Assembly: GCF_037076345.1 (NCBI RefSeq)
Contig: NZ_AP024702.1
Coordinates: 3,038,001 to 3,102,000 of the forward strand
Reading direction: 5' to 3'
From: Haloferula helveola
GTDB taxonomy: Bacteria; Verrucomicrobiota; Verrucomicrobiia; Verrucomicrobiales; Akkermansiaceae
DNA length: 64,000 nt
The translations under genes and the position numbers were made by a program. The stretch's first letter is position 1; each line of letters opens with the position of its first letter. Below the pieces are notes generated by a model. That model was not told where the DNA came from and made no database searches. It was given only the letters and a program-made list of their open reading frames with translations. Positions 17,094-59,307 of the stretch are shown here, piece by piece.

Positions 17094-17166
17094 TGGACCG
17101 CGAGCTTCAGCTCGCCCCGTCATGCCGGCAGCCCGGGTTCCGGGGCGAGCTGAAGCTCGCGGTCCA
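17094..17166. repeat. Nested palindrome, family TGGACCGCGAGCTTCAGC (copy 1)
   Basis: Perfect 25-base inverted arms at about 17094-17118 and 17142-17166 with a 23-base spacer. Each arm contains the near-perfect palindrome GCGAGCTTCAGCTCGC. It lies between two genes read in the same direction. Further copies are at 55070 and 59225. Outer borders TGGACC...CCCC are shared with the family at 6113 and 9994. Confidence 0.9.
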
Positions 17167-51966: not shown

Positions 51967-52950
51967 ATGAAGATTCCAACGTTTTTCGCCGCCATCGCGC
52001 TCGCCACCCCACTCGCCGCCGAGGATCCTTGGCTGGTCTTCGAAGGAAGTGACGGTCCGGGCAAAGGTAAGCATGTCGTGCTCGTCAGCGGTGACGAGGA
52101 ATACCGCAGCGAGGAAGCGATGCCAATGCTTGGCAAACTTCTGGCCGAGCGCCACGGATTCAAGTGCACCGTGCTGTTCGCGATCGATCCGAAGACCGGT
52201 GAGATCAACCCGAACGAGCAGACGAATATTCCCGGTGTCGAGGCGATCGACTCGGCCGACTTCCTGGTTGTCGGACTCCGTTTCCGCGAGTTGCCGGACG
52301 AGGACATGAAACACATCGTTGACTACGTCGAAGCCGGCAAGCCGTTGCTCGGCCTGCGGACCTCGACCCACGCTTTCAAATACGGTCGCCTGAAGGACAG
52401 CCCGTACAAGCATTGGTCGTTCAACTCGAAGGAGTGGGACGGTGGCTTCGGGCGCCAGGTGCTCGGGGAAACGTGGATCAATCACCACGGCCATCACGGC
52501 AAGGAGAGCACCCGGGGCGTTTTGGACGAGGCGAATGCCGGTCACCCGTTGCTGACCGGCGTCGAGGACGTCTGGGGCACCACCGACGTTTATGGCATCA
52601 AGAAGCTGCCCGAGGACGCGAAGGTGCTGATCCACGGTCAGGTGCTCTCGACCATGGAGCCCGACAGCGCCCCGGTCGAAGGCAAGAAGAACGATCCGAT
52701 GATGCCGGTGGCATGGGTGCGTGACCGCAAGGTCGGCGACAAGACCCAGAAGGTCATCTGCACGACCATGGGTGCTGCCGATGACTTCGTGCATCCCGGG
52801 CTGACCCGCTTCGTGGTCAACTCCGCCTTCTGGGCGACCGGGCTGGAAGTGCCGAAGGAGCTGAATGTCGAGCCGGTCGGCGACTACAAGCCGAGCGCCT
52901 TCGGCTTCAACAAGTTCGTCAAAGGCAAGAAGCCGGCGGATTACCGTTGA
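51967..52950 (+). CDS. Secreted ThuA-like protein
   Basis: A 327-residue protein with a signal peptide (MKIPTFFAAIALATPLAA). The core is a ThuA/glutamine-amidotransferase-like fold (GKHVVLVSGDEEYRSEE, DFLVVGLRFRELPDEDM, GKPLLGLRTSTHAF, VAWVRDRKVGDKTQKVICTT). ThuA domains are very common in Planctomycetes and Verrucomicrobia and are thought to act in sugar metabolism, but the reaction is not established. The gene ends 10 bp inside the convergent protease gene, so the two stops overlap. Confidence 0.92.
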   Translation: MKIPTFFAAIALATPLAAEDPWLVFEGSDGPGKGKHVVLVSGDEEYRSEEAMPMLGKLLAERHGFKCTVLFAIDPKTGEINPNEQTNIPGVEAIDSADFLVVGLRFRELPDEDMKHIVDYVEAGKPLLGLRTSTHAFKYGRLKDSPYKHWSFNSKEWDGGFGRQVLGETWINHHGHHGKESTRGVLDEANAGHPLLTGVEDVWGTTDVYGIKKLPEDAKVLIHGQVLSTMEPDSAPVEGKKNDPMMPVAWVRDRKVGDKTQKVICTTMGAADDFVHPGLTRFVVNSAFWATGLEVPKELNVEPVGDYKPSAFGFNKFVKGKKPADYR

Positions 52951-53801
52951 GCTTCCGCTTTATCCGCTTCGCGTGCCGGTGCTTCGAGGGTCTGGAGGAT
53001 CGCGGAGACCGGCACGCAGTTTTTCACGACCATTTGCAACGGTCCCTTCGGCTGGCCGTTGTCTGACTCGTAGTAGATCGATTGGGTCGAGGAAACCATC
53101 CCGACGACACGCCCATCGGTGTCGAGCACCGGTCCTCCCGAAGAACCCTTGGCGTAGTCGGCGGTGATCGACATCACCGTCGAAGCTTTCCGGTCGTCTT
53201 TGCCCGGGCGGCGGAAGTAGCGTGAGACGTCGCCGAAGGTGTGCATGAAGAAGCGCTTGTGGGGGTGGCTGATCACGTGCACCCGGCTCCCGATGGCCGC
53301 CGGAGTCCCGAGCGCGAGCGGCTTGAGGTCGCCCGCCTTGACCTTGAAGATGGCGACATCGTTCTCCTGGTTCTGAGCAACTACTTCGGTGATGATGTGG
53401 ACATTGCCCTCGCGGTCGCAGACCCCCATTGCGGCGCCTTTCGCTTTCTCGAACACGTGGTGGTTGGTGACCATCAGGCCGTCGGTCGTCAGAGCCCAGG
53501 CGGTCGCGACCCCACCGATGTGCCACTTGTCGCACTTCCCGCACTTGTAGACCGAACTAATCAGGAAAACGGATTCCGCCGGATCCTCCGGACTGCTGTC
53601 GGCCGCGGTCGAAGGCAACTCGATCGATCGGGAGATGTCCGACAAGCCTTTGGCAAAGGAGTCCGCTGTGGGAAACTCTTCCTTGTCCGCGATTTTCCCG
53701 AGTTTTCGTTGGAAATTAGCGATCAGGGCCGGGTCGTTGATCACGACAGGCTCGGCGAAGGCGGCACCGAGGCCGAGGAGGAAGAGCAGGGCGGTTTTCA
53801 T
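52941..53801 (-). CDS. Trypsin-like serine protease, secreted, with cysteine motif
   Basis: A 286-residue exported protein (signal MKTALLFLLGLGAAFA). Triad residues: His in MVTNHHVFEKA, Asp in ENDVAIFKVKAG, Ser in GSSGGPVLDTDG. A CGKCDKWH cluster lies before the catalytic His and may form a disulfide or bind metal, which is unusual for this fold. No PDZ domain follows. The long frame to 53990 has no signal and low complexity, so the ATG at 53801 is used. Confidence 0.88.
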   Translation of the reverse strand: MKTALLFLLGLGAAFAEPVVINDPALIANFQRKLGKIADKEEFPTADSFAKGLSDISRSIELPSTAADSSPEDPAESVFLISSVYKCGKCDKWHIGGVATAWALTTDGLMVTNHHVFEKAKGAAMGVCDREGNVHIITEVVAQNQENDVAIFKVKAGDLKPLALGTPAAIGSRVHVISHPHKRFFMHTFGDVSRYFRRPGKDDRKASTVMSITADYAKGSSGGPVLDTDGRVVGMVSSTQSIYYESDNGQPKGPLQMVVKNCVPVSAILQTLEAPAREADKAEAQR

Positions 53802-53856: not shown

Positions 53857-54582
53857 TCACCGGCGCCGCCACAGGCTGAGTTGCGAAGAGGTCCACTGGA
53901 ACTTGCGGGCGGTTTCCCGGATGAGGAATGGCTCGTCGCGGGTCGAAAGAAGTTCGAACGAGGGGTCGAGGTGCCGTTGCAGCCAGTCAAGCGTCGGGCC
54001 GTCCGGCCAGTTCTCCGGCGGAGTGAACTCGCCGAGCCACGTGCAGGGGGTGGCGAGGATGAGTTCGCCGCCCGGGCGGACGAGCGAAGGCAGCCGGTCG
54101 AGCAGTCGTTCCGGCTCCGGGAGGCGGCAGAGGAGGTTGGCGGCGTGGACCCGGTCGAAGTCTCCGAGGTCGTCGCGGAGGTTCATCGCGTCGCCCTGCT
54201 CGAAGCATACCCGGGACGGATCGGTGCCGTCGGGGAGCCTCGCTTCGAGCGGGGTCCACCCGTGGCCCTCGTCGAGCCGGCGGTAGGGGAGCGGCGCGTC
54301 CCGGAGGGCAGTGGCCGCATCGACGAACGCGTGGGAGAAATCAATGCCGATGACCTCGCCGCAGCTACGAGACATCTCGTAGGACGAGCGTCCGACGGCG
54401 CAGCCGAGATCGAGTCCCCGGGATGCTTCATCGGCAGAAAAGTGGCGCTGCGTGCGCACGGCGAAATCGAGCGCGTCCGCCATTCCCGCGGGGGTGTCTT
54501 CGGGGAGGATCTCCTCCGCGGTCCCGTAGTGGAAGAGGAGATACTCCGAGAGGAGTTTGTCCGACTCGTAGGGGTTGGACAT
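53857..54582 (-). CDS. Probable 4-mercaptohistidine N1-methyltransferase (OvoA C-terminal type)
   Basis: A 241-residue SAM methyltransferase. The N-terminal NPYESDKLLSEYLLFHYG, the SAM loop GLDLGCAVGRSSYEMS and CFEQGDAMNLRDDLGDFD match the stand-alone domain that in OvoA methylates 5-thiohistidine, giving ovothiol. In OvoA it is fused behind an iron sulfoxide synthase; no such gene or PLP lyase is in this window, so the pathway would have to be completed elsewhere. The start is ATG 54582 (MSNPYESD); a few codons upstream come from a dispersed repeat. A cupin gene lies 49 bp upstream on the same strand. Confidence 0.82.
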   Translation of the reverse strand: MSNPYESDKLLSEYLLFHYGTAEEILPEDTPAGMADALDFAVRTQRHFSADEASRGLDLGCAVGRSSYEMSRSCGEVIGIDFSHAFVDAATALRDAPLPYRRLDEGHGWTPLEARLPDGTDPSRVCFEQGDAMNLRDDLGDFDRVHAANLLCRLPEPERLLDRLPSLVRPGGELILATPCTWLGEFTPPENWPDGPTLDWLQRHLDPSFELLSTRDEPFLIRETARKFQWTSSQLSLWRRR

Positions 54583-54585
54583 GGG

Positions 54586-54622
54586 AATATCGAACATCGA
54601 ACGCTCAACACCGAACGTTGAA
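54586..54622. repeat. Dispersed GAACATCGAACG repeat (copy 2), before the methyltransferase
   Basis: Units such as GAACATCGAACGCTC and CAACACCGAACGTTG begin about four bases before the methyltransferase ATG, in the same orientation relative to the gene as copy 1 before rnhC. Confidence 0.78.
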
Positions 54623-54631
54623 GTCCGGGAA

Positions 54632-55009
54632 TCAGTGAACAGGGACCTCGCCTTCCTTCACGGCGGACTCGTCGTAGAAGAAGTCGTTGTCGTCGTGCTT
54701 GGGGATCGGGATGTTGACGATCTTCATGCGACCCACGGCACGGTGGCGGCATCCCGGGCGGATCATCACGGCGCTGAGCGGCTTCACCGCGACCATTTCG
54801 CCATCGAGTTCGAGGAATCCCTCGCCTTCGAGGACCAGATAGATCTCGGTGGTTTTCTTGTGATAGTGGGTGGTCGGTTCGTCGCGGACCTCAAGATAGT
54901 GCGCGGATGCCGGGGCGTCATCGAGATTGGCAAATGCCCGGCGGGTCGTGCCGCAGCAGCATTCGACGGGGGCGAGATCGGGGAAGTCAACGTGTTCGTA
55001 GCGCTTCAT
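54632..55009 (-). CDS. Cupin-domain protein, possible partner of the methyltransferase
   Basis: A 125-residue single cupin. Metal-ligand pattern: HYHKKTTEIYLVLEGEG (two His and Glu) and a later His in RPGCRHRAVG. An N-terminal VECCCGTTRRAF segment has three adjacent cysteines, which could take part in thiol or metal chemistry. It lies directly upstream of the methyltransferase gene on the same strand, so a joint role in histidine-thiol metabolism is possible but unproven. Confidence 0.85.
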   Translation of the reverse strand: MKRYEHVDFPDLAPVECCCGTTRRAFANLDDAPASAHYLEVRDEPTTHYHKKTTEIYLVLEGEGFLELDGEMVAVKPLSAVMIRPGCRHRAVGRMKIVNIPIPKHDDNDFFYDESAVKEGEVPVH

Positions 55010-55069: not shown

Positions 55070-55151
55070 TGGACCGCGAGCTTCAGCTCGCCCCGGAGAG
55101 TCGGTCCATTGCTGTGCTGGGGTTCCGGGGCGAGCTGAAGCTCGCGGTCCA
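55070..55151. repeat. Nested palindrome, family TGGACCGCGAGCTTCAGC (copy 2)
   Basis: Perfect 25-base inverted arms at about 55070-55094 and 55127-55151. Arm sequence is identical to copy 1 at 17094; the spacer (CGGAGAGTCGG...GGGGTTCC) resembles that of copy 3 at 59225. It lies between two minus-strand genes. Confidence 0.9.
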
Positions 55152-55178: not shown

Positions 55179-56393
55179 TCAGTCGCGGTCCGCGGCAAGC
55201 GCGTCCATGATGTAGCGCGACGGGCGGAAGTTCTCGATGATGATCTCCTGCCCGCCTCCGCGGTTCATGCGCACCTCCTTGACGTTGAAGTTCGGCGTCT
55301 TGTGGGGCGCGAACAGGATGTCGTCGTGGGTCGAGTTCTCGTGCTTCTTGAACATCTCCGGAACGATGTCGCCGCCGAGGTGGTCGTCGCGGCCGGTGGC
55401 GAGGTGGCAGGTGCCGAGCACTTTCTCGTCCTGAATGTCGGCGCCGGAAACGGGCAGCACCTGCGTGCCGAAGCCGAGTTCGCCGAGCGTGCCGGTCATC
55501 GGGTCGTCGGCGAGCCGCGCGTTGTGGGCATCAATGGTGGCCTGGTCGCCTTCGATCAGCTCCGACTTGATGATGTTGCGGTCGGTGACGGTCAGCACGC
55601 CTAGGGTGCCGTCTTCGTATTTCATCGGGAAGTGACCGCGGGCATCGGTCGGGACGAAGTAGACTTCACCGGCGGGCAGGTTCGCGACGTCCGGGGTCTT
55701 GCCTTTGCAAAGTCCGTGGGACTTCTGAGCCTCCTGACGGTTGAGGCCGAGCCAGGCGGTGAGGATGCGGCCATCTTCGAGTTCGAAGTCGATCTCAACG
55801 CTGTCCGCCTTGGTCATTGCGAGGCGGATCCGCTCGGCGTCGGCCGAAACCTCGTCGTAGCTCACTGCCAGGCCGGACGACAGGATGATGTCGTTGAGGC
55901 CGTGCAATGTTGCTCCGCGGAAACCGAACTCCTTGCACTTCGCCGTCAGTGGTGCGGTGGCGGAAAAAGTCGAGATGCAGAGGATGATGTCGTAGTTCGG
56001 ATAGATGTCGCGATCCAGCGACAGCTGCTTGCCCTCGGTGTCCCAGACCTCGTCGGCGAGATCCAGATTCGAACCGTGGGTGCAGCGGTAGGCGAACATC
56101 TCGCCACCGGTCATGCCGAGGCGGTCCATCGCTCCCTTGTGCAATGCTTGGTAGAAAGCTTCGTGCGCCTTCTTTTGCACCGGGAAGCCGTCCTCTTTGA
56201 GAAACTGGAAATCCCTGATCAGGCCGGCGGGCTCGTCGAAGTCGGTCAGGATGCAGACGCGGCATCCGTCGGTCGGTTCGAACACCGAGCTGAGCAACTT
56301 GACGAGGTCGAAGGGCGGAAAGTCGCGGTTTTCGGGATGGAGCAGGATCTCCTCGTGGAGGTAGTCGGGCAAGGTGGCCGTTGCGGATGACAT
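55179..56393 (-). CDS. M29-like (aminopeptidase T family) putative peptidase
   Basis: A 404-residue protein. The C-terminal region has LGTCHLATGRDDHLGGD and a later HDDILFAP with an adjacent NFNVKEV, reminiscent of metal-binding positions in M29 aminopeptidases (thermophilic metalloproteases). The N-terminal half (about 1-220) is alpha/beta and also fits that family. Identity by eye is moderate and other amidohydrolase-like assignments are possible. The start ATG at 56393 is used because upstream residues come from a palindrome. Confidence 0.7.
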   Translation of the reverse strand: MSSATATLPDYLHEEILLHPENRDFPPFDLVKLLSSVFEPTDGCRVCILTDFDEPAGLIRDFQFLKEDGFPVQKKAHEAFYQALHKGAMDRLGMTGGEMFAYRCTHGSNLDLADEVWDTEGKQLSLDRDIYPNYDIILCISTFSATAPLTAKCKEFGFRGATLHGLNDIILSSGLAVSYDEVSADAERIRLAMTKADSVEIDFELEDGRILTAWLGLNRQEAQKSHGLCKGKTPDVANLPAGEVYFVPTDARGHFPMKYEDGTLGVLTVTDRNIIKSELIEGDQATIDAHNARLADDPMTGTLGELGFGTQVLPVSGADIQDEKVLGTCHLATGRDDHLGGDIVPEMFKKHENSTHDDILFAPHKTPNFNVKEVRMNRGGGQEIIIENFRPSRYIMDALAADRD

Positions 56394-57538: not shown

Positions 57539-58582
57539 TCAGAGCTTTTCCGCGGCTTCGTGGAGGAGCGCCTCGGTGGTTTCCCAATCGATGCACTTGT
57601 CGGTGATCGATTGACCGCGGACGAGCTGGTCGAGCGGCTGGGGGAAAGACTGGTTGCCGGCGACGAGATTGCTTTCGAGCATCGCACCGATCACCGAGGT
57701 GTCGCCTGCGGCTCGCTGGCGGACGATCTCGCGGAAGACGTCGGGCATGCGCTTGTCGTCCTTGCCGCAGTTGGCGTGCGAGGCGTCGATCATGATCGCG
57801 GGCGGAAGCTTGGCGGCCTCCAGTGTTTCACGGGTCTTGCGGACGCTGTCCTCGTCGAAGTTCGGGCCGGCGTCGCCGCCACGCAGGATGACGTGGCATC
57901 GCGGGTTGCCGGTGGTGGTCACGGCGGAGGCGACGCCCTGTTCGGAGACGCCGAGAAAGGTCTGGGTCTTGCTGGCCGCCTTGACCGCGTTGATCGCGGC
58001 GTGGAGGTCGCCTGAGGTGGTGTTCTTGAAGCCGACAGGCATCGACAGGCCGGAGGCCATCTGGCGGTGGGTCTGGCTTTCCGCGGTGCGGGCGCCGATG
58101 GCCGACCAGCTGATCAGGTCGGCGATGAATTGCGGCGTGATCGGATCAAGCAGCTCGGTGGCGGTCGGCAGGCCGAGGTCGACGACCTTGCGCAGGAATC
58201 CGCGCGCGCGGCGCAGGCCTTCGGGGATGTTGTCGGAGCCGTCGAGTTTCGGGTCCATGATCAGCCCCTTCCAGCCGACGGTGGTGCGCGGCTTCTCGAA
58301 GTAAACGCGCATCACGAGGTAAAGCTTGTCCTTCAGCCGTTCCGAGAGCGCGGCGAGGCGCTGGGCATACTCGAGGCCGGCTTCGGTGTCGTGGATCGAG
58401 CACGGCCCGACGATCACCAGCAGCCTCGGGTCGTCACCGAAGAGGATCGAGCCGATCACGTCGCGCGAGGCAGCGACAAAGTCTGCCTGCTTCTCCGAGC
58501 GGGGGATTTCCGAATGGAGCAGGGCGGGTGCGGGCAGCGGGACGTTGCGGGCGACGTGCAGGTCGGTGACGCGCGAAGTCAT
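57539..58582 (-). CDS. 3-deoxy-7-phosphoheptulonate (DAHP) synthase, class I
   Basis: First enzyme of the shikimate pathway: condenses phosphoenolpyruvate with erythrose-4-phosphate. The 347-residue protein shows VIVGPCSIHDTEAGLEYA (metal Cys), MRVYFEKPRTTVGWKGLI, GARTAESQTHRQMASGLS, CHVILRGGDAGPNFD and PAIMIDASHANCGKD, all typical of the AroF/G/H group. Which feedback inhibitor it senses cannot be told. The gene is complete. Confidence 0.97.
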   Translation of the reverse strand: MTSRVTDLHVARNVPLPAPALLHSEIPRSEKQADFVAASRDVIGSILFGDDPRLLVIVGPCSIHDTEAGLEYAQRLAALSERLKDKLYLVMRVYFEKPRTTVGWKGLIMDPKLDGSDNIPEGLRRARGFLRKVVDLGLPTATELLDPITPQFIADLISWSAIGARTAESQTHRQMASGLSMPVGFKNTTSGDLHAAINAVKAASKTQTFLGVSEQGVASAVTTTGNPRCHVILRGGDAGPNFDEDSVRKTRETLEAAKLPPAIMIDASHANCGKDDKRMPDVFREIVRQRAAGDTSVIGAMLESNLVAGNQSFPQPLDQLVRGQSITDKCIDWETTEALLHEAAEKL

Positions 58583-59224: not shown

Positions 59225-59307
59225 TGGACCGTGAGCTTCAGCTCGCCCCGGAGAGTCGGGACATCATGGTGCAGGGGTTCCAGGGCGAGCTTAAGCTCGT
59301 GGTCCAT
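59225..59307. repeat. Nested palindrome, family TGGACCG(C/T)GAGCTTCAGC (copy 3)
   Basis: Inverted arms at about 59225-59249 and 59283-59307. Compared with copies 1 and 2 there are a few substitutions: GTGAGC on the left, CTTAAG in the right hairpin and GTGGTCC at its end. It lies between two minus-strand genes. Confidence 0.85.

Follow-up and report, generated by a model that had tools for sequence, protein, structure and literature searches.

A conserved pairing of a predicted metalloenzyme, D404, with an OvoM/OvsM-related methyltransferase in Verrucomicrobiota

OvsA is the selenoxide synthase of the ovoselenol pathway, and OvsM is its methyltransferase. OvsM is also the closest known structure to the methyltransferase (MT) considered here, which is encoded in a 64,000-nucleotide stretch of the Haloferula helveola genome (the window); the top matches in the PDB are OvsM (9bxh, 1e-52), OvoM (9bxl, 8e-38) and OvoA (8khq, 3e-37). 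The substrates methylated by this group of enzymes are 5-thiohistidine and 5-selenohistidine. A further enzyme of interest, NmbA, is described in PMC12719100 as a stand-alone N-methyltransferase of bacillithiol, acting on a small thiol. For the second protein considered here, the 404-residue D404, the related described structures are those of a dioxygenase and of aminopeptidases. NicX, a 2,5-dihydroxypyridine dioxygenase, binds iron through H265, S302, H318 and D320 (PMC7910607, section 8). In the M29 aminopeptidase AmpS of S. aureus, the metal ligands are E253, E319, H348, H381 and D383, with Y355 close by; the counterpart of this tyrosine in Lmo1603 is Y315 (both from PMC4661694).

The window genome (5.68 Mb, a single contig, 98% complete) was compared with a family sample of 60 genomes from its own family and with a phylum sample of 288 Verrucomicrobiota genomes; all genome counts are raw tallies, uncorrected for ancestry. 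The surroundings of MT were fetched for the 53 of 60 family genomes in which MT scores at least 145 bits, G001 and G003 being represented by 3.7-kb loci only. The initial annotation had described MT and a cupin upstream of it on the same strand, and both genes were confirmed at their positions on the minus strand (Table 1). The linkage of this pair is real, but the constant partner of MT, D404, had gone unmentioned. On the minus strand the order of transcription is D404, a hairpin, the cupin, MT and a trypsin-like protease, with 34 bases between the cupin and MT. The protease, 3' of MT on the same strand, is probably a mere neighbour; homologues are present in the fetched regions of four other family genomes (G007, G009, G050 and G020, in the last more than 5 kb away) and in none of those from other families. 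The fetched regions of relatives contain no homologue of the ThuA-like protein (E 1e-10), and the promoter and terminator scans gave no result.

Table 1. Features at the D404–MT locus, in positions of the window.
Feature	Position	Strand	Basis and remarks
ThuA-like protein	51967-52950	+	33.5 bits, cut-off 33.4
Trypsin-like serine protease	52941-53801	-	Trypsin_2; start site and signal peptide assigned by visual inspection
MT, methyltransferase	53857-54597	-	246 aa; TIGR04345
Cupin, small, metal-type, with CxCG motif	54632-55009	-	125 aa; Cupin_2; part of the module in some genomes only
Dispersed palindromic repeat, REP-like hairpin	55071-55150		Inverted 22-mer pair
D404, 404-aa predicted metalloenzyme, predicted NicX / M29-aminopeptidase fold	55179-56393	-	AlphaFold2 model, ligand conservation
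DAHP synthase	57539-58582	-	About 4 kb or less from the module

The hairpin between D404 and the cupin is formed by an inverted 22-mer, which occurs as three pairs in the window (17095-17165, 55071-55150 and 59226-59305; chance expectation 0.00); one of the two other pairs carries 1-2 mismatches. The element looks like a dispersed palindromic repeat of the REP type. The intergenic RNA is predicted to fold into a long hairpin at -83.2 kcal/mol (z -7.3), which may weaken read-through.

Judged by its sequence, MT is a class I SAM methyltransferase and a divergent relative of OvoM, OvsM and the C-terminal domain of OvoA. The TIGR04345 model matches it along its whole length with 172.2 bits, against a cut-off of 170, and the open frame spans 266 aa, so that the description of MT as a free-standing relative of the OvoA C-terminal domain is upheld. 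The model exceeds its cut-off in 27 of the 60 family genomes, and the remaining 26 orthologues score 145-169 bits. MT is homologous over its full length to OvoA, OvoM and OvsM, with identities over the aligned columns of 40%, 40% and 49%, respectively. The SAM-binding region is kept in all of 87 stand-alone MTs (one per genome, 53 from the family and 34 from elsewhere, three of them, in G001, G018 and G046, from genomes without D404), when these are aligned with 13 OvoA domains of the phylum and the three PDB sequences.

The likeness does not extend to three positions that may contact the substrate. OvoA, OvoM and OvsM carry D152, Y180 and H230, whereas the window MT has C152, C180 and W230; this D/Y/H trio is our own criterion, drawn from three PDB sequences and numbered on the trimmed window MT. 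The trio is present in 3/3 PDB sequences and in 9 of 13 OvoA proteins, in none of the three second MTs of OvoA genomes and in none of the 87 stand-alone MTs, six of which have D/Y/W. An unrooted tree was built from 67 rows (34/34 non-family and 14/53 family stand-alone MTs, the three second MTs, 13 OvoA domains and three PDB sequences). In it, a branch with 99/92 support parts OvsM, OvoM and OvoA from the other sequences; OvsM branches off along the path that connects the groups, and the placement of six sequences from family f22 is weak. Because the trio is missing from 87 of 87 stand-alone MTs, the specificity for mercaptohistidine first ascribed to MT is doubtful, and the label "4-mercaptohistidine N1-methyltransferase" on such proteins is no proof of ovothiol. 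The stand-alone MTs are likely to share a chemistry akin to that of OvoA, OvoM and OvsM, a claim that stops short of the same substrate. Plasmid records contain 18 matches to MT, of which 14 are annotated as ovoA; there were no matches in phage records, and no relatives were found in viral contigs.

The gene that accompanies MT across genomes is D404. In the phylum sample, D404 (more than 450 bits) is present in 44 of 288 genomes and TIGR04345 (E <= 1e-20) in 57. The set of D404 genomes coincides with the set of 44 MT genomes that lack OvoA, and the other 13 MT genomes are the OvoA genomes; these counts leave out G202, with a weak D404-like match of 92 bits, and include among the OvoA genomes G182, in which the halves of OvoA occupy two adjacent frames. 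In three of the OvoA genomes (G217, G275 and G280), which like the rest lack D404, a second MT that stands alone is encoded as well. In the family sample, where D404 is found genome-wide in 52 of 60 genomes, 50 have both genes, three have MT only (G001, G018 and G046, which are 72%, 88% and 93% complete, respectively), two have D404 only (G004 and G017) and five, all of genus g3, have neither. In family f4, two genera (G066 and G312) carry both genes, and genus g28, with four genomes, carries neither, a pattern suggestive of joint loss. The family genomes with one gene but not the other, and the three second MTs without D404, are exceptions that count against a two-gene module.

The two genes are also physically linked. 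In 23 of the 34 genomes from outside the family, D404 directly precedes MT on the same strand, less than 300 bases away. The two genes lie within 6.1 kb of each other in 28 of the 34; in the other six, a point against the pairing, they do not share a fetched region. Within the family, D404 is upstream on the same strand inside the fetched MT region in 26 of 53 genomes. Among same-strand frames up to 4 kb from either gene, only D404 and MT recur in 11 of the 11 families compared, and the next neighbour cluster, DAHP synthase, reaches three; in this tally the three loci of second MTs were wrongly assigned to family f1, which leaves both family counts as they are. MT's constant partner is thus D404, and not the cupin. 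The carriers of the pair include genomes of 1.3-1.7 Mb, and its presence in 11 family groups suggests a metabolic step that aerobic Verrucomicrobiota regularly carry out, the first enzyme of which goes unnamed by the Pfam and NCBIfam scans of the window.

Several other genes were seen near the module. DAHP synthase is nearby in G030, G080, G304 (just downstream of MT) and the window, too few cases to build on. Upstream of D404 and on the same strand, several family relatives (L062, L074, L077, L083, L084 and others) have a gene resembling a bifunctional nuclease (a cluster with members in 14 genomes) and one resembling a gamma-carbonic anhydrase (a cluster with members in 12); both names are our reading of the sequences.

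In the phylum sample, D404 is also restricted to genomes with COX1 (E <= 1e-30). COX1 is present in 101 of the 288 phylum genomes, comprising 44 of 44 with D404 as against 57 of 244 others, and in 11 of the 13 OvoA genomes. This link fits an O2-using enzyme, but shared ancestry confounds it and alone could explain it, and the 57 COX1 genomes without D404 speak against a reading of D404 as an oxygenase.

The cupin matches Cupin_2 with 38 bits (cut-off 27.2) and contains the HxH...E...H motif of metal-type cupins (H48, H50, E55 and H89). Its metal-ligand histidines and its "CCC" segment had both been remarked on from the sequence, and both hold: all 16 orthologues keep H48, H50, E55 and H89, and the segment belongs to a CxCG motif that is itself conserved, in which C17, C19 and G20 are invariant and C18 nearly so. 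The closest cupin relative, PDB 4h7l, has C-x-C-G too. Orthologues, defined by at least 62% identity, occur in 16 of the 60 family genomes; each of the 16 also has MT, and in 15 of them the cupin adjoins it. In the sixteenth, G037, the cupin and MT are at contig ends, and D404 and the cupin share the end of another contig than MT. One genome, G024, has a second cupin copy (68%) elsewhere, and cupin matches of any kind (E <= 0.001) are found in 35 of the 60.

It could be argued that the cupin is the real catalytic partner of MT and D404 a bystander. The adjacency in 15 of 16 genomes favours this, as do three genomes in which the cupin stays with MT while D404 is located elsewhere (G039 and G056) or is not found (G046, where the cupin is also directly beside a nuclease-like gene). 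However, 37 of the 53 family MT genomes are without an orthologue, six of them having a homologue of 48-50% or 53% identity elsewhere, and a cupin cluster near MT is limited to the window's family among the 11 families compared. We regard this explanation as improbable. Since an orthologue accompanies MT in just 16 of 53 genomes, the suggestion that the cupin supplies a core step is unsupported and was rejected; some genera have the cupin as an accessory.

The known thiol and selenium pathways were searched for genome-wide. The window genome gave only partial matches to the OvoA N-terminal model (38.7 bits, cut-off 400) and to the EgtB model (47.5 bits), with no full-length EgtB-like or OvsA protein found, matching the earlier observation that the iron sulfoxide synthase is missing from the window. 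In the phylum sample the EgtB model (E <= 1e-40) matches 16 genomes, 13 of which are the OvoA genomes, and at this threshold an EgtB-type synthase is present in only one of the 44 module genomes (G188, an EgtB). An ordinary ovothiol pathway with its genes scattered over the genome, as had been proposed, would account for MT scoring slightly above the TIGR04345 cut-off and for its homology to OvoA C-terminal domains. It is contradicted by the search of the window genome, in which no OvoA, EgtB or OvsA-type synthase was found, by the single such synthase among 44 module genomes and by the D/Y/H trio, found in 0/87 stand-alone MTs; the absence of D404 from all 13 OvoA genomes among the 288 adds little, having a chance of 0.11. 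The proposal is already largely refuted and we consider it scarcely credible.

Nine full-length EgtB-like proteins from family genomes (L113-L121; 264-289 bits) belong elsewhere. L119 scores 428 bits with the OvsA of the PDB, compared with 187 for EgtB and 173 for SenA, and shares 55-95% identity with the other eight. These OvsA-like proteins occur in nine of the 60 family genomes, eight of which have D404 and MT, that is, in 8 of the 50 D404–MT genomes of this sample. In this respect the family sample is less clear-cut than the phylum sample, and these eight genomes count against the two-step module preferred below. SenB-like proteins stand beside them in all four loci tested (278-296 bits, just below the cut-off of 300), and SelD (TIGR00476, E <= 1e-20) is present in eight of the nine genomes. 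This suggests synthesis of ovoselenol or 5-selenohistidine in the nine relatives. SelD is found in 28 of the 60 family genomes at the same threshold; 27 of the 28 matches contain one in-frame TGA, and therefore SelD there may be a selenoprotein itself.

MT might then be an OvsM that makes ovoselenol. Its top PDB match is OvsM, and in the nine OvsA-like genomes, with their SenB-like neighbours and SelD, the sole MT above 145 bits is the MT considered here. Against this, SelD was found neither in the window genome nor in the seven genomes of its genus, OvsA was not found in the window genome, the fetched OvsA regions contain no MT, and OvsM has D/Y/H where the window MT has C/C/W. As a general account of MT this is very unlikely, though it could still hold in the nine OvsA genomes; for the window strain ovoselenol was rejected. 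With the synthases and SelD not found and the D/Y/H trio absent, synthesis of either ovothiol or ovoselenol in the window strain is unlikely. Methylation of bacillithiol by an NmbA-type enzyme was likewise rejected: of the 288 phylum genomes, BshC was found in two that lack D404 and in 0 of the 44 with the module. None of the window MT's 41 matches in the PDB bears the name NmbA, though some are called only "Methyltransferase".

D404 itself is hardly recognized by sequence searches. The window protein has no match in Pfam, NCBIfam or the PDB (the last up to E 10), and a D404 sequence profile gave no match in the PDB either; 21 of 43 D404 members, the window protein not among them, weakly match Peptidase_M29 (PF02073; best 4.6e-5), and two archaeal homologues are annotated as aminopeptidase. 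Among named genomes the survey of D404 covers the 80 top-scoring relatives out of at least 509, and beyond Verrucomicrobiota it covers plasmid and viral records only, with three partial matches in the former and no relatives found in viral contigs. The D404–MT pair is not named in the PMC literature on ovothiol, ovoselenol or mercaptohistidine, among the matches listed; D404 has no searchable name.

An AlphaFold2 model of D404 from 43 sequences has a mean pLDDT of 95 and a pTM of 0.91; an earlier model from 27 rows had a pLDDT of 82, and NicX is the first match for both. Foldseek against the PDB returns NicX as the single match below 0.001 (1e-13), and VIA-align gives Z scores of 26.5 for NicX, 18.8 for AmpT, 17.3-18.4 for AmpS and PepS, and 13.0 and 11.7 for the crocagin proteins CgnE and CgnB. 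Residues E243, E305, H330, H356 and D358 are invariant in 64 D404 sequences. In an alignment with two archaeal M29 members, three of these five line up; the HxD pair is shifted there by one residue and was assigned from its motif. According to the model, then, D404 has the M29 ligand set within a fold closest to that of NicX, and one iron or two metals would both fit.

These features are compatible with two kinds of enzyme. D404 could be a metallo-hydrolase similar to M29 aminopeptidases, which would free or trim the substrate of MT without O2, the module being otherwise the same. Its five invariant residues match the five M29 metal ligands, and the weak Peptidase_M29 matches and the archaeal annotations point the same way; both M29 glutamates are kept, which would suit a two-metal hydrolase no less than an iron oxygenase and weakens the case for the latter. 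On the other hand, the M29 tyrosine (Y355 in AmpS, Y315 in Lmo1603) is D337 in D404, the predicted fold is closer to NicX than to the M29 enzymes (Z 26.5 against 17-19), and a hydrolase gives no explanation for the restriction of D404 to COX1 genomes in the phylum sample. The hydrolase is possible, and ranks second. An oxygenase-type D404 ranks first, with about an even chance that the D404-(cupin)-MT locus is a two-step module of such a metalloenzyme and a methyltransferase.

For the preferred oxygenase-type module we infer a shared pathway, an order of steps, the use of O2 and a type of substrate along the following lines. The cupin and MT would be the downstream part of the module. D404 and MT would most likely act one after the other on a single small metabolite, which is probably amino-acid-like or a nitrogen heterocycle. 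D404 would perform a metal-dependent and probably O2-dependent conversion, and MT would methylate the substrate or product at a nitrogen or, with lower likelihood, at a sulfur; the cupin would be accessory in some genera. If D404 is an oxygenase, the NicX fold would gain a reaction, and the pathway may yield a small molecule so far unrecognised. A bolder proposal, to which we give only an outside chance, is that an iron-using D404 with the NicX fold replaces the OvoA-type sulfoxide synthase: it would modify a histidine-derived imidazole with O2, by a route unrelated to OvoA, EgtB and OvsA, and MT would then finish a new histidine-derived redox metabolite, a small thiol or equivalent, in aerobic Verrucomicrobiota. 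At any rate, the reading of the locus should move from MT and a cupin in a thiohistidine pathway to D404 and MT as a conserved two-gene module with an optional cupin.

Compared with known systems, MT is free-standing, as are OvoM and OvsM, and NmbA is likewise a stand-alone methyltransferase. The M29 aminopeptidases AmpT, AmpS and PepS share with the modelled D404 the fold and the counterparts of all five metal ligands, at similar spacings. They differ in that a tyrosine lies seven residues past their first histidine ligand, where D404 has the invariant Asp337. D404 is also tied to a methyltransferase, and the window D404 does not match M29 in Pfam. NicX, in contrast, is the nearest fold (309 residues superposed at 3.6 Å, with 13% identity). 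D404 likewise has the histidine and the HxD pair of NicX; a counterpart of Ser302 was not traced in D404, and D404 differs further from NicX by its E305, which corresponds to the second glutamate of M29.
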